Assembly (NCBI RefSeq): GCF_001942495.1
Contig: NZ_MKZS01000001.1
Span: 946,569-1,006,763 of the forward strand
Length of the DNA: 60,195 nt
Direction: 5' to 3'
Origin: Moorena bouillonii PNG
GTDB lineage: Bacteria > Cyanobacteriota > Cyanobacteriia > Cyanobacteriales > Coleofasciculaceae
Made by a program: the position numbers and the translations under genes. The notes beneath the pieces are model-generated. The model was not told where the DNA came from. It was given only the letters and a program-made list of their open reading frames with translations, and made no database searches. Shown piece by piece: positions 51,685 through 59,757 of the stretch (the stretch's first letter is position 1; each line of letters begins with the position of its first letter).

Positions 51685-52539
51685 GTGGCTAAGATTGTGG
51701 GTGTTCATGGGATTAATCAAGAATTTAGAGGTAGTAATACAATTTATGATCAATGGCTACCAGCCCTCAAAGATGGTTTGGAGCGTGTTGGAGCTAGATT
51801 AGATTCTGATAATGAATTCCACTGTGCCTTTTATGGAGACCTGTTCAGAGGTCGCTCAAAATCAGCAATGGGGATACCTAACTATGACGCCAGTGATATT
51901 GACTCGGATTGGGAGAAGGAACTCCTCCTGGAATGGTGGGAAGAAGTAGCAAAAGTAGAAGACGATATTAAAGGCCCAGCGGATATATCCAGAGAAAAGG
52001 CAACACCGAGACTTGTTCAAAAGGCTTTAAATGCCTTAAGTGGTTCTAGGTTTTTTGGTGGTGTTGCTGAAAAGATCGTGATTTCTTTTCTGAAGCAAGT
52101 TGGGGGTTACTTACATAATCCAGAGTTAAGACAGCAAATTCGCGATCGCGTTGTGGAAGCCATAGATCAAGATACCCGTGTATTGGTTGGTCACTCTCTG
52201 GGGTCAGTTGTCTGTTACGAAGCCCTATGCCAACATCCAGAATGGTCAGTGGAGGTTTTTGTGACTCTAGGTTCCCCATTGGGGATAAGAGGGCTGATTT
52301 TTGATCGCCTGGAACCCTCACCTGTCTCTAATTTGGGGTCTTGGCCGGGAAGTGTCAAACAGTGGATCAACATTGCGGATGCGGGAGATATTGTTGCTTT
52401 AGAAAAAGAATTAAATCCTTTATTTGACGGGTTAGTGGAAGATAAGCTTGTTTATAATGGATCTGATGCTCACAATGCTAGTAACTATTTTACTGCATCT
52501 GAAACAGGAGAAGCTATTAAGTTGGGCTTGATTGATTAG
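51685..52539 (+). CDS. Alpha/beta hydrolase, first gene of the caspase/MoxR/vWA operon
   Basis: A 284-residue predicted serine hydrolase or lipase-like protein. The nucleophile elbow GHSLGS is at 169-174 with S171; an acidic residue in ADAGD (about 232-235) and H263 in DAHN complete a plausible triad. The N-terminus carries the oxyanion-type VHGINQE. No signal peptide is present, so it is cytoplasmic. The start is GTG at 51685, with an SD-like AGGTAGG before it. It ends 12 bp before the caspase-like gene and is on the same strand, so it is probably co-transcribed with the conflict module and may be an added effector. Its substrate is unknown. Confidence 0.82.
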   Translation: MAKIVGVHGINQEFRGSNTIYDQWLPALKDGLERVGARLDSDNEFHCAFYGDLFRGRSKSAMGIPNYDASDIDSDWEKELLLEWWEEVAKVEDDIKGPADISREKATPRLVQKALNALSGSRFFGGVAEKIVISFLKQVGGYLHNPELRQQIRDRVVEAIDQDTRVLVGHSLGSVVCYEALCQHPEWSVEVFVTLGSPLGIRGLIFDRLEPSPVSNLGSWPGSVKQWINIADAGDIVALEKELNPLFDGLVEDKLVYNGSDAHNASNYFTASETGEAIKLGLID

Positions 52540-52551
52540 TAGACGAGGTAT

Positions 52552-54483
52552 ATGGCGGGAAAACCCAGGTATTATTTAATCGCTTGTGGAACAAGCAACT
52601 ACAACGATCAGGATGTAGATAACTTAGATAGTGTTCCGACAGACTTACAGAGAGTTGTTGATTTATTTATTCATAAATTTGGATATGAAGAAGCCTTGAC
52701 GAATCTTCGTTTAAATCCGAATAAAAATGAGTTGATAAAACAATTTTCAGACTGGCTTCAGCATGAAGAACGATGTCAGAGCGATCGCGTTATCTTTTAC
52801 TATTCCGGTCATGGTGAAGATCTTAAAGGAGATAGACATTATCTTTTGATGGAAGAGACTGATTACAATCAACTTCCTCAGACATCCTTGCCAACAGAAG
52901 ATTTAGTTCGTCCTTTGAATAACGAAGGAGTTAAGATTGAACAAATCCTGTATATTATCGATAGTTGTTATTCTGGGGTCGGAATAAGTGATGTCTCGAA
53001 ATTTACTACACAAGTTGTTCAGAAATACCAATCAGTAGGAGGAGCAGGTATCGCAGTTCATGGGATTGCGGCTTGTCGTGCCAAAGATACAGCCAAAGAA
53101 GATGTATTTTCTAGGGGCTTGGAGCAAGTTCTTAACGATTTAAGTAAAAACTACGGTAATTTATACATTCCTCTAGATTATATAGTTGACCAAATTAATC
53201 AGATTATTTCCTCAGAGCAACGTGCTTCCTACTCAGCTTCTGGCTCTGAAAAATTTGCTAAATTCTTCCCCATTCTGCCTAAGACTATACAAACATGGGA
53301 AGAAAAGCAAGATGAACTCATTAGGGAACTTTTTGCTGGATTAAAGAAACACCCAGAAGATAGCTTACTTCAGGTAAACTCTTTTATTTTAAGTTATAAA
53401 ACTATTGAAAAGCTTGTCTTAGACGATGAATTTATTCTGGATTGTATAGAAATCGAAAAAAGACTGACTGAATTAGGAAAAAAACCAGTTTCAAGAGGAA
53501 TATGCCCTCTAGTGGCTTGTGCAGAATGGTGTCGGCGAAGATTTTCTAAACAGGATAACAAATTGAGGAGACTTGCTAAGACTATTAAAAATTGGCAACA
53601 GGAAGTTCTAAGATATCGAGAAGATGCAAACCTCTCTACAATCCAAGAATCTGTTAAAAAAGCTGATTTAAAATTTCAAGAACTGATTACGACAGAAAAT
53701 CTGCGACTTCAAGTTGAGATTGAACCAGAGGTTGATAATGATAATGGTACAGGACAAGCCTCTGGTGCCTTACTTTTGAGTATGAATCTTTGGCTTGAAA
53801 GTCAGGATTTACCACTTGGTCGGTTTGCAGAAAAGATACGGTTAGAACCTTGCGACAGTGGAAAAAGTGTCTCTGAGCAAGAGAGTGAGAGTTTATACAC
53901 TAATCTTGAAAAGATTTTGCCCAACTTAATTCGTAAGGCTCGTTATAGTTTACCGGAACGAGTTAATTTAACAATTGAGTATTTTCTTCCTTTCGACTAT
54001 TTCAAAACAAAATTGGAGAAGATTAGGTTTAAGCGAGGGAGAAACCTAACACCCCTCGGTGAAGAGTACCCAATTTTTATCAACTCCTATGAACGATATT
54101 TTGATCCAGATTTTCTTGAGATTCGTGATGAGATTGAAGTCAAGAAGCAAGGGTTATGGAATGATGTAAATAATTCTGTGACTGAACCGAGTGTCCCTGG
54201 GGAATTTGAAGGGGATGATATCTATTATATGGGTACAGACCCATCAGATTCCGATCTAGAAAGAATTGAGGAAGCTTTACCCATTGCGGTCTGGAGTCGG
54301 GACGTGAACCAACCTCTGATTGAAGGAGAGCATCTAAACCTCTCAGAATGGCAAGATTGGCCTAACAAAATACGTGATTTACGAAAAAAGAAAAAGGGTT
54401 TGGAGGTAACCCTTCTCTGGGATGATTTATATCCGAAGCCTTCCCAACGCTGTAGACCCTTGAATACCGACGTGGTGGACTAA
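52552..54483 (+). CDS. Caspase-like protease fused to a VMAP-C-like domain
   Basis: A 643-residue protein. Residues 1-245 are a caspase-fold peptidase (C14 clan): the catalytic His is H87 in YSGHGED and the catalytic Cys C139 in DSCYSG, both with the flanking hydrophobic strands. The middle (about 255-390) is helical, with 'ECIEIEKRLTELGKK'-like sequence. The C-terminal part (about 395-640) has features of VMAP-C, the vWA-MoxR-associated protein tail: 'LTIEYFLPFDYF', GEEYPIFINSYER, and WPNKIRDLRKKKK. In ternary conflict systems an effector is fused to the VMAP core like this. The stop codon is one base before the MoxR start. Targets of the protease are unknown. Confidence 0.87.
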   Translation: MAGKPRYYLIACGTSNYNDQDVDNLDSVPTDLQRVVDLFIHKFGYEEALTNLRLNPNKNELIKQFSDWLQHEERCQSDRVIFYYSGHGEDLKGDRHYLLMEETDYNQLPQTSLPTEDLVRPLNNEGVKIEQILYIIDSCYSGVGISDVSKFTTQVVQKYQSVGGAGIAVHGIAACRAKDTAKEDVFSRGLEQVLNDLSKNYGNLYIPLDYIVDQINQIISSEQRASYSASGSEKFAKFFPILPKTIQTWEEKQDELIRELFAGLKKHPEDSLLQVNSFILSYKTIEKLVLDDEFILDCIEIEKRLTELGKKPVSRGICPLVACAEWCRRRFSKQDNKLRRLAKTIKNWQQEVLRYREDANLSTIQESVKKADLKFQELITTENLRLQVEIEPEVDNDNGTGQASGALLLSMNLWLESQDLPLGRFAEKIRLEPCDSGKSVSEQESESLYTNLEKILPNLIRKARYSLPERVNLTIEYFLPFDYFKTKLEKIRFKRGRNLTPLGEEYPIFINSYERYFDPDFLEIRDEIEVKKQGLWNDVNNSVTEPSVPGEFEGDDIYYMGTDPSDSDLERIEEALPIAVWSRDVNQPLIEGEHLNLSEWQDWPNKIRDLRKKKKGLEVTLLWDDLYPKPSQRCRPLNTDVVD

Positions 54484-54484
54484 A

Positions 54485-55588
54485 ATGCCAAAGAACCCAA
54501 CATCTGACCAGCCGGATCGTCGCATCTACCGGGGCTTAACCCTCACTAGAGGAAGTTTACCAACCCCAGAAGACCAACAACAGCATCTGAGTCGTATGCC
54601 ACCGCCACCCCCTTGGCGCACCTTTGGTCTGTCAGTTGAGCAATGGCGTGAAAAAGCACAATCACAAAATACCCAAGACATCGTAAGAAAGATTAATCCA
54701 AAGGCATTGGGGTTTGTTCCGACCAAGCAAGCGGTAGAATTGGTCAATGCTGCATTGTGTTTACGTCGCCCTTTACTGATTGAAGGAAATCCCGGTAGCG
54801 GCAAAACATCCTTAGCCTATGCAGTAGCAGCTGAATTGGGATTACCGGGGCCTTACCGCTGGTCAATTGTTTCTCGCACTACTTTGAAAGATGGTCTGTA
54901 TGCTTACGATGCCATTGGGCGATTACAAGAAGTGTCTTTACTGAGGCAACAAGTTGGTAATACAGAGAGAATAAAAGAACCTGATATTGACATTGGTAAC
55001 TATTTAAGATTAAGACCAATGGGTATGGCATTTCATCAATCTCAACCCGGTAGACCGGCTGTGCTGTTAATTGACGAAATTGATAAGAGTGATATTGATA
55101 TGCCCAATGATCTCTTACATATATTTGAGGAAGGATTTTTTGAGATTCCAGAACTGAGTCGCTTAAACAACGACTCCCAAAAGGTACTTCCTTACCGCAG
55201 TCAAAGCCATGATAGTGATGAAAAAATTGAGGTTGAGAAAGGATTAATTCAATGTCAAGAGTTTCCCTTAGTCTTGATGACCAGTAATGAAGCACGGGAG
55301 TTTCCACCAGCCTTTCTACGCCGATGTCTACGGTTATCTCTCAAGCAACCTGAGACACCAGAGGGTTTCTATAAAATTTTAGAAAACCGCTTTGATGCCG
55401 CCCATTTAAAGCAACTGGATCAGCCAGCTCGGAAATTAATCAAGGAATTTTTGGGACGAATTAATGCAACAGACACAACGTTAGCAACGGATCAATTGTT
55501 GAATGCTATATATTTATTACTACAAGGAGATGACTTAACTGAAGAAACACGGAAAGATCTATTGAATACTATTTTCAAATCACTGTGA
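54485..55588 (+). CDS. MoxR-type AAA+ ATPase
   Basis: A 367-residue ATPase. Walker A is GNPGSGKT at 101-108, Walker B LLIDEID at 194-200, sensor 1 N268 in MTSNEAR and arginine finger candidates R279/R280 in FLRRC. A 95-residue N-terminal region with a Pro stretch precedes the ATPase. MoxR proteins usually work with a vWA protein as an ATP-dependent chaperone or switch. Here the start is one base after the caspase stop and the vWA gene follows by 12 bp, so the three should be made in fixed proportion. Confidence 0.93.
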   Translation: MPKNPTSDQPDRRIYRGLTLTRGSLPTPEDQQQHLSRMPPPPPWRTFGLSVEQWREKAQSQNTQDIVRKINPKALGFVPTKQAVELVNAALCLRRPLLIEGNPGSGKTSLAYAVAAELGLPGPYRWSIVSRTTLKDGLYAYDAIGRLQEVSLLRQQVGNTERIKEPDIDIGNYLRLRPMGMAFHQSQPGRPAVLLIDEIDKSDIDMPNDLLHIFEEGFFEIPELSRLNNDSQKVLPYRSQSHDSDEKIEVEKGLIQCQEFPLVLMTSNEAREFPPAFLRRCLRLSLKQPETPEGFYKILENRFDAAHLKQLDQPARKLIKEFLGRINATDTTLATDQLLNAIYLLLQGDDLTEETRKDLLNTIFKSL

Positions 55589-55600
55589 GGTCAGGGGGAA

Positions 55601-58303
55601 ATGGTGAGTCAAAAAAATCAATGGTGGCAAGATGATAGAGAGGTGGCAGAGCTGATCTGGTGCTTGGCTCATTTAGATCGTATTGTTGCTCCTCCATCCT
55701 CTCAAGACATCAAACCACCAGAGGATGTACACCATTCTGATCCAGAATCATCTACTGAAAATCTCTCAGACGATTATCCAAAGATTCCTCCTTCAGGAAG
55801 GGAAAAAGCAGAACAAAAGATACCCATTGCGGCTAATCTTAAACAGCCTGACCATGCCCCGACTTCCCCTCAAAAACCCGAATCATCCTCCAATAATTAC
55901 AGCTCTCCTATTCGTGTTCCTGACCCCTTTCCCTTACCCAAACCTAGGGAAATCAGTAAGGCACTGTTGCCCTTATCTAAGCGTGTTCCTGGACTGCTAG
56001 CCAATGAACTGGATATTGAGGCAACCGTTGAACAAACCGCCGAAGCTTATGGATTGCCAATGCTGGCATTTCGTTCTCCCCTAGAGCGATGGTTTGAAGT
56101 ACATTTATTGATTGATTGCTCCCCTTCCATGGCATTTTGGGGAGATTTAGCAGAAGGGGTGGCAACGCTTTTTCGCTGGCAAGGGTTTTTCCGGGATGTC
56201 CGGATTTGGCACTTCGATACAACAGAACCTACCCCCCAATTGTTTTCAGGTGTTGACCGGATTGAACGGAGTGTTCGTAGCTTGATCGCACCAGGAGGAC
56301 ATCGACTCTTTATTGCCTTAACGGATACTTTGGGAAAAGCTTGGTATTCCGGTCAAGCCTTTGAGGTTTTAGCACAATTAGGAGAACAGCATCCTGTTAG
56401 TATTGCCCATGTTTTTCCTCAAACCCTATGGCAGCGCACAGGTCTAGATCAGGCAATTCAACGACCATTGATTGCTCGTGAGCCAGAGTCTCCTAACTCC
56501 ATGTTACAAGTAGGAGCTAGGCTTCGTACAACGGCTAGGTTATATAAATTTCCAATTTTCAATTTATCTAGGAACCACTTTAGCACTTGGGCGAATTTTA
56601 CCACCGGGAGTGGCAGCAATTCTATTCAAGGGGTTTTAATTAGACAGGATAAGCCCGAAACAGCCACAACGAATCCTAAAAAGCAAAGGTCGGAACAACC
56701 TGAATCAGTGGCGGAAAATCCAGAACAGTTACTGAGAGGATTCTTGGCTAATGCTAGCCCCAAAGCCCGGGAACTTGCTGAAGTTCTGGCTGCTGTTCCC
56801 CTGATTCCTCCAGTCATGCGTTTGGCACAACAGTGGTTTTTACCCGATAGCGAACACTGGCATCTGGCAGAAGTTTTTTTTAGTGGTCTGATCCAAAAGT
56901 CTTCCTTGGGGCCAGAGCAGGTAACTGTTCCCGAAACTTGGTATGAATTCCGTCCGGGAATTCGGGAGTTACTGCTAGGAAATAGTCCAGTTCAACGCAC
57001 CACTGAGATTTGGCGGGAAATTGGAGATTTCATAGAGCGTCGTTATGGTAGTCTGCGGGATTTTCCAGCACTGATTCCCAACCCAGCCGGGTCTGTTCCA
57101 GGTGTTGCTGCAGATCGAGACCTCTATTTTGCTGAAGTCAAGGCTGCAGTTTTCACCACTTGGGGAGGAGAATACGCCAAGTTTGCAGAGGAAGTCAGTG
57201 AAAAAGTAGCAAAACGGAAACGGGAGAAAGAAGAGATTGGTAAGGGGACAGTTGAGCTCACTGACAACTTAGAACCTTTTGAATTTGAAGCGGAAGTCCC
57301 CACCATTGTTTTTGAAGAGGAGCCAGACCAGGATGAAGAGAAATTACAACAGTGGACATTTGAAACCCCGACTGTTAACCATCACGGGGAAATTACCGAA
57401 ACAACAACCTACACCGCCTCTTACTTCACCGAAACCCTAACCGATAATGTGGAACTGGAAATGGTGGCTATCCCTGGAGGAACGTTTACCATGGGTTCCC
57501 CTGAAAATGAAGTTAGAAGTCAGAAGTCAGAAGTCAGAAGTTTCAGAAGTAATGAAACACCTCAACATAATGTCACACTCCAACCCTTCTTTATGGGGAA
57601 ATACCCTGTCACCCAAGCCCAATGGAACGCGATCGCATTAATGACAGACTTGAAAGTCGAGAGAGACTTAGATCCAGATCCTTCAGATTTCAAGGGGGAT
57701 AACCGTCCCGTTGAAAACGTAAACTGGTATGATGCCGTCGAGTTCTGTGACCGGCTTTCTAAGTTAACAGGAAGGGAGTATAGACTGCCTTCCGAAGCCC
57801 AATGGGAATATGCTTGTCGAGGTGTCACAAAACCTCTCAACCTTGATAAAGGAGAATCCTACCCCCCATTCTACTTTGGAGAGACGATTACCGGAAAGTT
57901 AGCCAATTACGACGCCTCAAGACCTTATCGGGATGAACCACCAGGAGAACAAAGCCAGGGAACCACCCCTGTCGGTCAATTTCCTCCGAATCCCTTTGGG
58001 TTATATGATATGCACGGGAATGTTTGGGAATGGTGTTTAGATGATTGGCATGAGAACTACGAAGGTGCCCCCACAGATGGCAGTGCTTGGATTGAGGATA
58101 ATGAAGCAGAAAATGTCAATGGTGAAAATGAGTCAAATTCAGACAAAAATGACGAAAATCCGCCAATATCACCCCTGCGGGGCGGCTCCTGGATTTTCTA
58201 TCCTGATTTCTGCCGTTCTGCGATTGGCTACGACTTTAGGCGCGTGGTCCGCCTCTACGATGTTGGTTTTCGTCTAGTGTGCGTGTCCGGGAGAACTGGA
58301 TGA
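55601..58303 (+). CDS. vWA (SAV_2336-type) protein with C-terminal FGE/C-type-lectin-fold domain
   Basis: A 900-residue protein. Residues 1-35 form a Trp-rich helix (REVAELIWCLAHLDR) typical of the SAV_2336 family, then a Pro/Ser-rich linker to about 125. The vWA domain spans about 160-350 with a MIDAS D172-S174-S176 (DCSPS) and D242 (LTDTLG). A helical part reaches about 600, then a formylglycine-generating-enzyme/sulfatase-modifying-factor type domain, a C-type lectin fold, at about 616-897 (VAIPGGTFTMGSP, YRLPSEAQWEYACRG, GLYDMHGNVWEW, RGGSW...CRSA...GFRLV). Residues about 860-897 look like a DGR variable region. A GAAGTCA array is inserted in frame near residue 640 (R-S-Q-K-S-E-V-R-S). 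It presumably senses through the lectin domain and signals to MoxR and the caspase. Confidence 0.88.
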   Translation: MVSQKNQWWQDDREVAELIWCLAHLDRIVAPPSSQDIKPPEDVHHSDPESSTENLSDDYPKIPPSGREKAEQKIPIAANLKQPDHAPTSPQKPESSSNNYSSPIRVPDPFPLPKPREISKALLPLSKRVPGLLANELDIEATVEQTAEAYGLPMLAFRSPLERWFEVHLLIDCSPSMAFWGDLAEGVATLFRWQGFFRDVRIWHFDTTEPTPQLFSGVDRIERSVRSLIAPGGHRLFIALTDTLGKAWYSGQAFEVLAQLGEQHPVSIAHVFPQTLWQRTGLDQAIQRPLIAREPESPNSMLQVGARLRTTARLYKFPIFNLSRNHFSTWANFTTGSGSNSIQGVLIRQDKPETATTNPKKQRSEQPESVAENPEQLLRGFLANASPKARELAEVLAAVPLIPPVMRLAQQWFLPDSEHWHLAEVFFSGLIQKSSLGPEQVTVPETWYEFRPGIRELLLGNSPVQRTTEIWREIGDFIERRYGSLRDFPALIPNPAGSVPGVAADRDLYFAEVKAAVFTTWGGEYAKFAEEVSEKVAKRKREKEEIGKGTVELTDNLEPFEFEAEVPTIVFEEEPDQDEEKLQQWTFETPTVNHHGEITETTTYTASYFTETLTDNVELEMVAIPGGTFTMGSPENEVRSQKSEVRSFRSNETPQHNVTLQPFFMGKYPVTQAQWNAIALMTDLKVERDLDPDPSDFKGDNRPVENVNWYDAVEFCDRLSKLTGREYRLPSEAQWEYACRGVTKPLNLDKGESYPPFYFGETITGKLANYDASRPYRDEPPGEQSQGTTPVGQFPPNPFGLYDMHGNVWEWCLDDWHENYEGAPTDGSAWIEDNEAENVNGENESNSDKNDENPPISPLRGGSWIFYPDFCRSAIGYDFRRVVRLYDVGFRLVCVSGRTG
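57509..57550. repeat. GAAGTCA heptamers in frame inside the vWA-lectin gene
   Basis: About five units of AGAAGTC, encoding R-S-Q-K-S-E-V-R-S. The second copy of the domain (58338 gene) has no counterpart, so it is an insertion in a loop at the start of the lectin-fold domain. Confidence 0.85.
58176..58290 (+). other. Candidate DGR variable region 1
   Basis: The last 115 bp of the vWA-lectin gene's lectin domain. It starts TGCGGGGCGGCTCCTGG and ends GGTTTTCGT(C)TAGTGTGCGTG, both nearly identical to the region at 59152-59269. In between, codons such as ATT, TTC, TAT, GAT and TAC replace what would be AAC/AAT in a template, while CCT, TGC CGT TCT GCG and AGG CGC are constant. See the finding for the comparison. 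Confidence 0.7.
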
Positions 58304-58336
58304 AGTCAGAAGTTTGAAGTCAGAAGTTTGAAGAAT
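58302..58336. repeat. GAAGTCA/GAAGTTT repeats between the two lectin-domain genes
   Basis: Five units of GAAGTCA and GAAGTTT. The TGA stop codon of the vWA-lectin gene (58301-58303) overlaps the start of this array. Confidence 0.8.
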
Positions 58337-58337
58337 T

Positions 58338-59288
58338 ATGCCAAAACTGACCATAAAACGCCCAAAACAAACCTTTCAAGGCTACAGAGAATACATAGAC
58401 GGTATCCCTCTCGAAATGGTTTTAATCCCTGATGGAACCTTCACCATGGGCGCACCGGAGAGTGAAGAAGGGAGTAGTGACACTGAAAGACCCCAACATG
58501 ATGTAACTATTTCCTCGTTTTTAATGGGACGTTATCCCATTACTCAAGATCAATGGAAAGCGATCGCCTCTCGATCTGACCTTAAGGTCAATCAAGATTT
58601 GGATCCAGACCCCTCTTATTTTAAACAGCCCTATCAATGGATAGATAGATGGCGAAGACCTGTTGAAAACGTCAATTGGTATCAAGCAGTAGAGTTCTGT
58701 CACCGCCTTTCTAAGCTAACAGGAAAGGAATATAGACTACCTTCTGAAGCGCAATGGGAATATGCCTGTCGAGGGGTTACAAAACCCCTTAACCTCGAAA
58801 ACGGAGAATCCTATCCCCCATTCCACTTCGGAGAAACCATTACAACAGCTTTGGCTAATTATCGCGAGACGGATGATAAAGACTCTAGATCGTCAGGTGA
58901 TGGTAGAGGGCCAAAAGGAGAATACCGTAACGAAACAACACCAGTAGGCTATTTTAAAGTCGTCAATTCTTTTGGACTTAGTGATATGCACGGGAACGTT
59001 TGGGAATGGTGCGCTGATGATTGGCATTCTAATTACGAAGGTGCGCCCACAGATGGCAGTGCTTGGATTGATAATAATGAACTGGAAAATGTCAATACTG
59101 AAAATAAGTCATATTCAGCAAAAAATCATGATCAAAGTCCATCTTCAGTGATGCGGGGCGGCTCCTGGACTATCAATCCTAATTACTGCCGTTCTGCGCT
59201 TCGCGTCAACGACGATAGGCGCTATGACCGCAACAACGCTAATGGTTTTCGTATAGTGTGCGTGTCCGGAATGAAGTCAGAAGTTTGA
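58338..59288 (+). CDS. Stand-alone FGE/C-type-lectin-fold domain protein
   Basis: A 316-residue protein that is a tandem paralogue of the lectin-fold half of the preceding gene. It has the same blocks: VLIPDGTFTMGAPE, YRLPSEAQWEYACRG, GLSDMHGNVWEW and 'NYEGAPTDGSAWID'. It is soluble with no leader. True formylglycine-generating activity is doubtful: the position corresponding to the catalytic cysteines is taken by the variable region, and one Cys (YCRSA) is kept. Residues about 272-311 are a candidate DGR variable region. The C-terminus (MKSEV) and stop codon are encoded by the GAAGTTT repeat array. It lies 34 bp after the vWA gene. Confidence 0.88.
   Translation: MPKLTIKRPKQTFQGYREYIDGIPLEMVLIPDGTFTMGAPESEEGSSDTERPQHDVTISSFLMGRYPITQDQWKAIASRSDLKVNQDLDPDPSYFKQPYQWIDRWRRPVENVNWYQAVEFCHRLSKLTGKEYRLPSEAQWEYACRGVTKPLNLENGESYPPFHFGETITTALANYRETDDKDSRSSGDGRGPKGEYRNETTPVGYFKVVNSFGLSDMHGNVWEWCADDWHSNYEGAPTDGSAWIDNNELENVNTENKSYSAKNHDQSPSSVMRGGSWTINPNYCRSALRVNDDRRYDRNNANGFRIVCVSGMKSEV
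59152..59269 (+). other. Candidate DGR variable region 2
   Basis: 118 bp with the same flanks as region 1 and one extra codon (GAC). Runs of AAC and AAT codons (N-P-N, N-N-A-N) remain here, as expected where fewer adenines were changed. Flanking duplicated sequence differs from its paralogue mainly at third codon positions, unlike this region. Confidence 0.7.
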
Positions 59289-59304
59289 AGTTTGAAGTTT
59301 GAAG
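59272..59304. repeat. GAAGTCA/GAAGTTT repeats after the second lectin-domain gene
   Basis: Four units (one GAAGTCA, then GAAGTTT). The TGA stop of the second lectin-domain gene (59286-59288) lies inside it. Confidence 0.8.
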
Positions 59305-59311
59305 AAATAAT

Positions 59312-59668
59312 TTGAGTTATCAACAAGTTTCAATTCAGGACAGAACCAAAAAGTTTGCGGTTAGAATAGTCAAAGCTTGCATTTGGTTAGAAGAAGAATC
59401 TAAAGTTCCTAGAACCTTAGCGAATCAGTTATTAAGGTCAGGAACTTCTATCGGAGCTAATTGTAGTGAAGCTCAGTCAGCCCAATCCCGCAGAGACTTT
59501 ATCAGTAAATATGAAATTGCTCTGAAGGAAGCAAGAGAAACACAATACTGGCTAGATGTTTTAATAGAAGCCGAACTGGTATCATTAGAAAAGTTCAAAG
59601 GACTAATCCAAGAAACCGAGGAAATTATTAAAATCTTAGTCACTACCGTCAAAAAACTCAAAGAATAG
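59312..59668 (+). CDS. Four-helix-bundle protein (S23/Avd-like)
   Basis: A 118-residue all-helical protein of the four-helix-bundle family related to 23S rRNA intervening-sequence proteins (S23). Signature stretches are 'LANQLLRSGTSIGANCSEA' near 36 and SKYEIALKEARETQYWLDVL near 65. The DGR accessory protein Avd, which partners the reverse transcriptase, belongs to the same structural group. Being immediately after two candidate DGR targets makes an Avd-like role plausible but not shown. The start is TTG at 59312, 23 bp after the previous gene; no ATG is near. No reverse transcriptase is in the window. Confidence 0.78.
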   Translation: MSYQQVSIQDRTKKFAVRIVKACIWLEEESKVPRTLANQLLRSGTSIGANCSEAQSAQSRRDFISKYEIALKEARETQYWLDVLIEAELVSLEKFKGLIQETEEIIKILVTTVKKLKE

Positions 59669-59757
59669 ACTTCTGACTTCAAGCTTCTGACTTCAAACTT
59701 CTGACTTCTGACTTAATAAAAACTTCTGACTTCAAACTTCTGACTTCTGACTTCAAA
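59669..59757. repeat. Inverted GAAGTCA array (TGACTTC) after the four-helix gene
   Basis: About ten units of TTCTGAC/TTCAAAC, the reverse complement of the array at 59272-59304. The pair flanks the four-helix gene and can form a long stem. Confidence 0.85.

Follow-up and report, generated by a model that had tools for sequence, protein, structure and literature searches.

The window analysed here, a stretch of 60,195 nucleotides from Moorena bouillonii PNG (contig NZ_MKZS01000001.1, positions 946,569 to 1,006,763 of the forward strand), contains two consecutive genes that end in variable repeats (VRs) of the type targeted by diversity-generating retroelements (DGRs). We propose, at a probability of roughly 0.8, that both repeats, VR1 and VR2, carry diversity that a DGR wrote after the Moorena species had separated, and that the reverse transcriptase (RT) and the template repeat (TR) behind it have been lost or sit on an uncaptured element such as a plasmid. 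The proposal draws on the anatomy and codon statistics of the repeats, their homology to the TRs of DGRs, a gene order shared with a DGR-bearing plasmid, diversification of the repeats after speciation, and searches for RT, TR and Avd that failed in the Moorena assemblies. The two genes and their repeats are the following:

55601..58303, + strand: coding sequence 1 (CDS1), 900 aa, with a SAV_2336-type N-terminal region and a C-terminal FGE-sulfatase/CLec domain; carries VR1
58176..58290, + strand: VR1, 115 bp, at the 3' end of CDS1; one codon shorter than VR2
58338..59288, + strand: CDS2, 316 aa, a stand-alone FGE-sulfatase/CLec protein (Pfam FGE-sulfatase, 171.6 bits); carries VR2
59152..59269, + strand: VR2, 118 bp, at the 3' end of CDS2

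Anatomy of the repeats and their relation to known templates

An earlier note on this DNA, made from the letters alone, had described VR-like stretches at two lectin-fold C-termini, and both are found where it placed them, in frame, at the 3' ends of the coding sequences and in FGE-sulfatase domains. Residues 620-893 of CDS1 match Pfam FGE-sulfatase (PF03781) with 185.6 bits, and the PDB matches of CDS2 include 5hha (PvdO, E 5e-31) and 2y3c (T. denticola variable protein 1, E 5e-17); each of the two proteins has a CLec/FGE-type domain that bears the VR at its C-terminus (PF03781; 2y3c match). The 2y3c protein is named in a passage of PMC7159879 as TvpA of Treponema denticola, a DGR variable protein; it differs from a full counterpart of CDS2 in that the best single stretch spans residues 41-125 and the VR end aligns weakly.

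With the best placement of a one-codon gap, VR1 and VR2 differ at 21 sites, distributed over codon positions 1, 2 and 3 as 11, 9 and 1; another placement returns the 23 differences (13/9/1), 17 of them with A and all but one at positions 1 and 2, that the earlier note had counted. The 37 codons of the repeats carry 20 differences at positions 1 and 2 and a single one at position 3; for the 228 codons of FGE flank that align between CDS1 and CDS2 the counts are 86 and 107 (Fisher p=3.7e-6 for the codon-position pattern), which bears out the remark that the neighbouring duplicated sequence varies at third positions: 47% of these differ in the flank and 1 of 37 in the VR. The involvement of A (in one partner of 16 of the 21 VR differences and 103 of the 193 flank differences) is a weaker signal taken alone. 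The conserved VR skeleton begins and ends approximately at the borders originally given, and its codons GGT TTT CGT, which played no part in the search for the VRs, are the same in 18 of the 20 VRs that we aligned, the latter forming three families. The home genome (G000; 8.32 Mb in 13 contigs) was compared with three more Moorena assemblies, G001 and G002 among them, one genome standing for each species.

RTs with the DGR motif GLPIGNL(T/S)SQ were located at nine loci (L060-L068) of order-level relatives, 57 of which were searched with the BPP-1 RT. Self-comparison of the sequence around DGR RTs, accepting as TR/VR pairs those in which 6 or more template adenines and no more than 3 other sites had changed (a filter that some unrelated repeats passed as well), gave FGE-type pairs in all 11 of the larger stretches around DGR-motif RTs, with 9-21 changed adenines and 0-2 other changes, and the TRs beside these RTs carry much of the Moorena VR skeleton. 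A VR2 search of 388 genomes of the order returned a match at E 1e-7 in 64, three of them Moorena; among the 27 VR2-like loci that were read (L136-L162), five (L138, L140, L148, L153 and L155) are short-frame, A-rich TRs that have the Moorena VR skeleton and lie beside RTs of 623-633.5 bits.

These five heterologous TRs served as reference in a template-adenine test, since the genome's own TR was not found, and they differ from the VRs at non-A sites too; one further locus (L139, with an RT of 573 bits alongside) allowed no ungapped alignment and was omitted. Against the five, VR1 is changed at 21/28 to 25/33 template adenines and at 6/49 to 13/52 other sites (p 8e-6 to 6e-9). Changed adenines are likewise enriched in both VRs of G001 (p 7e-5 to 1e-8) and moderately so in the VR of G002 (p 0.009 to 1e-4).

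VR2 is collinear over 118 bp with the TR of a Microcystis FD4 plasmid, with 92 of 118 positions identical, and two of the five TR loci lie on plasmids named in PLSDB, Microcystis FD4 p1FD4 and Nostoc UHCC 0926 pn2. On pn2 (NZ_CP117770) the gene order is AAA, long FGE (VR), short FGE (VR), Avd, RT and TR, followed by ParA and ParB, and each of its two VRs is changed at 13 of 33 template adenines, with 0 and 1 of 85 other sites altered. Moorena shares with pn2 the order AAA-long FGE-short FGE and the VR/TR skeleton, its FGE domains are 51-54% identical to those of the plasmid, and the AAA proteins are homologous (39.7% identity over 209 aligned positions of the fetched part); directly downstream, however, where pn2 has Avd, RT and TR, Moorena has a four-helix-bundle gene that is not Avd, and neither RT nor TR was found. 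Because the variable sites of VR1 and its relatives match TR adenines, and because of the plasmid synteny and the 2y3c match, VR1 and VR2 appear, on sequence grounds, to be targets of a known cyanobacterial DGR lineage. The initial attribution to adenine-directed mutagenesis by a DGR thus survives as far as membership in a DGR-target family is concerned, but not as a claim that a DGR is acting in this genome now.

Divergence of the repeats between Moorena species

Four disjoint pairs of syntenic VRs were compared between species: VR1 of the home genome and G002, VR2 of the home genome and G001, and one pair each from families B and C, both between the home genome and G002. Over all codons of the core VR, 69 of 200 position-1/2 sites and 3 of 100 third positions differ. 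The VRs of families B and C had been found by the string TGCCGTTCTG..CGC, and because of this the constancy of TGC CGT TCT is not used as an argument; the count was repeated without the five search codons and then stands at 69 of 162 position-1/2 sites (43%) and 3 of 81 third positions (4%). In the flanks of the same pairs, 129 of 1728 position-1/2 sites (7.5%) and 112 of 864 third positions (13%) differ, giving p=8.8e-13 for the position ratio and p=0.012 for third positions alone. Left outside the sum as it shares a member, a further pair (family B, home genome and G001) has 22 differences at positions 1/2 and 1 at position 3 over 21 codons. The scatter over all bases and codon positions that the earlier note had named as speaking against a DGR is not what we observe: between species, the changes fall mostly at positions 1 and 2.

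Two controls were available for this pattern. The first is a paralogue with the same skeleton in the four Moorena genomes, whose six pairs differ at 1-4 position-1/2 sites and 1-6 third positions over 33 codons. The second is an orthologous VR in seven Microcystis-type genomes (g68, including the genome with p1FD4), of which six have no DGR-RT match at 1e-40; here the 21 pairs are separated by 0-5 differences over 98 bp, and the flanks could be counted in 7 of them, the others being out of register. The Moorena VRs behave as recently written and the Microcystis-type VR as frozen, and we conclude that the Moorena diversity is not an old relic, because syntenic VRs diverge at positions 1 and 2 while control VRs stay near frozen. 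At two core codons, the VR1 and VR2 of G001 agree with each other in the third position and differ from the home genome and G002, the pattern to be expected of lineage-specific templates. As regards the arrangement of the compared genes, G002 is without CDS2 (L112 3881-5891), and its CDS1 FGE tail runs straight into the sequence found downstream of VR2, as if the FGE tails of CDS1 and CDS2 had recombined.

In the history that we favour, a DGR RT would have copied an AAC/AAT-rich template, placing random bases opposite adenines, and the resulting complementary DNA would have replaced the VR between the borders CGGGGCGGCTCCTGG and GGTTTTCG..GTGTGCG; such copying would keep the skeleton and nearly all third positions while randomising positions 1 and 2. 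Writing would have continued after the split of the Moorena species, and the machinery would most likely have been lost recently in the sequenced lineages or be carried on a plasmid-like element, or in a cell subpopulation, outside the assemblies. Since two of the closest TRs lie on plasmids, an economical cause would be a plasmid, or an element of another kind, that disappeared in culture or was left unbinned, with loss in each lineage as the alternative.

The missing writer and the competing explanations

No complete DGR cassette of DGR-type RT, TR and Avd was found in the home assembly. Within the window, in agreement with the earlier note, open frames of at least 25 aa gave no match to a DGR-RT profile, and the only skeleton matches are VR1 and VR2 themselves, with no TR. 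The genome-wide search for a DGR RT and template, which that note had offered as the test that could overturn its proposal, likewise found neither: loci covering all 42 RVT_1 matches of the home genome lack the DGR motif at the RT site, most of them showing the QG...SP motif of group II introns or being fragments, and a fragment (L029) and L030 gave neither motif. Two odd frames were seen among these loci, one of 1029 aa with an FVDD motif (L030) and one of 474 aa with PQGSPASP. The profile, built from ten DGR RTs and giving about 550-658 bits for full-length ones, has a single match in the home genome, of 75.9 bits, at a locus with the group II intron motif; the best score in G002 is 78.5 bits, no match was obtained in the four Moorena genomes at E 1e-40, and the best across 20 genomes of the family, the four Moorena included and several being fragmented drafts, is 142.3 bits.

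The four Moorena genomes contain 26 skeleton sites with up to 3 mismatches; every one of these lies in an FGE open frame, and no TR was found among them; an exact-core search gave 19 sites. The Avd model (NF033474, cut-off 80) reaches 33.4 bits at best in Moorena and 32.4 in the home genome, against 127.7-141.4 in two DGR-bearing genomes; some DGRs need no recognisable Avd. The gene at 59312-59668 was considered as a candidate Avd and rejected, as it matches neither NF033474 (Avd) nor PF22296 (bAvd), though two true Avd proteins match both, and an RT just past the VR2 position was looked for and not seen in the syntenic stretches of G001 and G002, which are ungapped. Among known plasmids, the best 20 records of at least 5000 for the RT, a selection that may omit ones near the home genome, include no Moorena, and viral contigs gave 0 matches to the VR skeleton. 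The 8.26-Mb contig of the home genome looks like a scaffold, with exactly 100 N at C1:1006764-1006863, starting at the first base past the end of the window (60195), and more 100-N gaps occur in other stretches of the genome.

Several of these results weigh against the history proposed above. As no RT, TR or Avd was found in the four Moorena assemblies, we infer DGR writing from its product, and it would not be parsimonious to assume three or four independent recent losses, or four failures to capture one and the same element. VR2 alone is unconvincing in the template-adenine test (10/28 to 13/33 adenines against 8/52 to 15/55 other sites, p 0.02-0.3), and VR1 is without one skeleton codon, which a fresh template copy would not yield. 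Third positions differ between G001 and the others at 3-6 of 36-38 codons. The share of variable columns containing A is significantly above that of the flank in only one of five orthologue-group tests (p=0.01; the others 0.12-1), two of which overlap, and the A-enrichment among orthologues is too weak for use. Finally, the FGE flank of CDS1 offers no clean clock, having recombined or else changed further than the genes upstream of it (89.6% identity between the home genome and G002 over the FGE domain, 97.5% upstream).

The empty searches would be accounted for if a DGR had been lost before the genus diversified, leaving the VRs as fixed relics that evolve like ordinary coding sequence. The absence of RT, TR and Avd from all four Moorena assemblies, the 142.3-bit ceiling in the partly fragmented family genomes and the codon missing from VR1 would all fit such a loss, as would a PCC 7120 paralogue without an RT nearby for which a passage of PMC7517822 reports 'remnant TR-VR homology'. 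We nevertheless consider it improbable, as the syntenic VRs, with 43% of position-1/2 sites changed against 7.5% in the flanks and third positions below the flank, largely contradict it; a relic looks like the near-frozen Microcystis-type VR. An ordinary FGE sensor whose binding loop is under diversifying selection, with no retroelement and the skeleton held by protein constraint, would likewise agree with the lack of machinery and with the weak A-bias among orthologues, and the variable sites presumably form the binding face, where a fast-evolving sensor would vary too. Such selection predicts, however, synonymous C/T changes in NNY codons at about the flank rate of 13%, against the 4% seen (p=0.012), and it sits poorly with paralogues of one genome that differ at 47% of flank third positions but at 1 of 37 in the VR, with the near-invariance of GGT TTT CGT (18 of 20 VRs) and with a skeleton that matches the TRs of distant cyanobacteria; we therefore rate it very unlikely.

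Exchange rather than new mutation would be at work if gene conversion or domain shuffling among FGE paralogues had moved VRs between paralogues or strains, and the drop in CDS1 identity from 97.5% to 89.6% at the FGE domain, together with the absence of CDS2 from G002 and a junction in the FGE tail, points in that direction. Conversion would nonetheless carry variable sites along with the skeleton, whereas by eye no VRs of the same genome share a full set of variable codons, an unsystematic comparison in which the two G001 VRs do have several codons in common; the other VR families of the home genome, moreover, differ in third positions. On balance such exchange is an unlikely source of the pattern. 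There is also a small chance that RT and TR are present in the organism and fall into assembly gaps, and a 100-N gap does lie 926 bp past VR2, near the place of RT and TR on plasmid pn2, but the corresponding stretches of G001 and G002, which are free of N gaps, show no RT, and genome-wide searches of the three further assemblies yielded no RT, TR or Avd. Least probable of all, the VRs might still be rewritten without recognisable DGR RT, TR or Avd, for example by another RT, the genome having 42 RVT_1 matches, that copies the VR transcript itself and would require no separate template; this would amount to template-less, adenine-directed diversification of immune-type sensors.

The nearest precedent for the orphan VRs of Moorena is provided by DGR 3 and DGR 7 of Thiohalocapsa PB-PSB1, which, in the account given in a section of PMC10907252, are diversified even though the assembled locus is broken, a situation put down there to past activity or to intact copies in other cells. 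In PB-PSB1 and similar cases RT and TR lie elsewhere in the genome or in structural variants, whereas none were found in the four Moorena assemblies.

Gene neighbourhood and meaning of the orphan repeats

The other features of the locus are these:

51685..52539, + strand: small alpha/beta-hydrolase-like protein, first gene of the system (Pfam Abhydrolase_1, E 8e-4, 19.5 bits, below the 25-bit cut-off)
52552..54483, + strand: caspase - VMAP-M14 - VMAP-C protein (Pfam VMAP-M14 115 bits, VMAP-C 53.8, Peptidase_C14 40.7, all over cut-off)
54485..55588, + strand: MoxR-like AAA ATPase (Pfam AAA 34 bits, AAA_2 and AAA_5, over cut-offs; 'MoxR-like' from context)
59312..59668, + strand: four-helix-bundle gene (23S_rRNA_IVP / TIGR02436, 98.8 bits)

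Two components of a VMAP ternary conflict system are present in the AAA ATPase (of the MoxR subtype by context) and the caspase-VMAP protein. The vWA component would be represented by CDS1, whose N-terminus matches NCBIfam SAV_2336_NTERM with 455 bits and which contains a DxSxS motif (IDCSPSM) that we take to be vWA MIDAS-like; no vWA Pfam match was obtained at E 0.001. Judged from its domains, the upstream gene set together with CDS1 appears to have the layout of such a system, and the genes are probably those of a bacterial self-defence system in which the FGE/CLec domains would probably serve as ligand-binding sensors of the caspase-VMAP / MoxR-AAA / vWA assembly. In line with this assignment, an alpha/beta hydrolase-caspase pairing is mentioned for VMAP systems in a passage of PMC7159879, and parts of PMC7159879 and PMC10907252 report the FGE-type components of cyanobacterial VMAP systems as mostly linked to DGRs. 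The DGR-diversified MoxR/vWA/VMAP sensors treated in those parts resemble the Moorena locus in having an FGE target, vWA-FGE there and putatively so in Moorena, beside MoxR AAA and peptidase-VMAP proteins.

The four-helix-bundle gene occupies the place that Avd has on Nostoc plasmid pn2; it is present in the home genome and G002 but not at the G001 locus, and was perhaps gained or lost independently of the DGR. Heptamer-like GAAGTCA/GAAGTTT tandem repeats stand at gene ends and inside CDS1 (57509-57552, 58300-58337, 59271-59306 and 59668-59757), those inside CDS1 adding residues that its orthologues in G001 and G002 do not have, and the stop of CDS2 lies within such a repeat. Elsewhere in the home genome, five further VR-bearing FGE genes belong to two other skeleton families (C1:918054, 1450851, 308062 and 4163335; C3:979); for these likewise no TR was found. 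The genome has about seven DGR-type hypervariable sensors.

DGR-diversified FGE sensors in VMAP systems and DGRs that act in trans or are broken are already known; the novelty lies in the VR set of Moorena and in the evidence that writing went on after speciation with no writer in sight. Among the open-licence papers listed in literature searches (20 of 1,396 and 15 of 81), none was seen to report a DGR in Moorea/Moorena; in the passages concerned PMC3610870 brings up Moorea solely in connection with metabolites and a photosystem hybrid protein, with DGRs in unrelated passages. The survey of cyanobacterial DGRs with C-terminal CLec targets in PMC7517822 describes, in the portion relevant here, features seen in Moorena as well (the VR at the C-terminus of a CLec/FGE module, paralogues that lie dispersed, and signalling proteins with several domains), but its genomes were chosen for a complete cassette, and 'Moorea' appears nowhere in its main text. 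Among the 61 non-Moorena genomes with a VR2-like match, in which the sites are mostly VR-like by match only, an RT match of at least 300 bits occurs in 26 and in none of the other 35. FGE genes with VR-like ends in RT-less genomes look common by this measure, and RT-first screens such as that of PMC7517822 would miss them, since those 35 genomes have no such match. A Trichodesmium metagenome-assembled genome (L134 4398-4442) has a VR with the family-A skeleton in which an in-frame TAG in the variable part truncates the protein.

Moorena thus presents a case of writing separated from its writer, with diversity younger than the split of the species and no writer found in four assemblies. If the writer resides on plasmids, the diversity of the sensors would not be tied to the chromosome, and acquiring a plasmid could turn it on.

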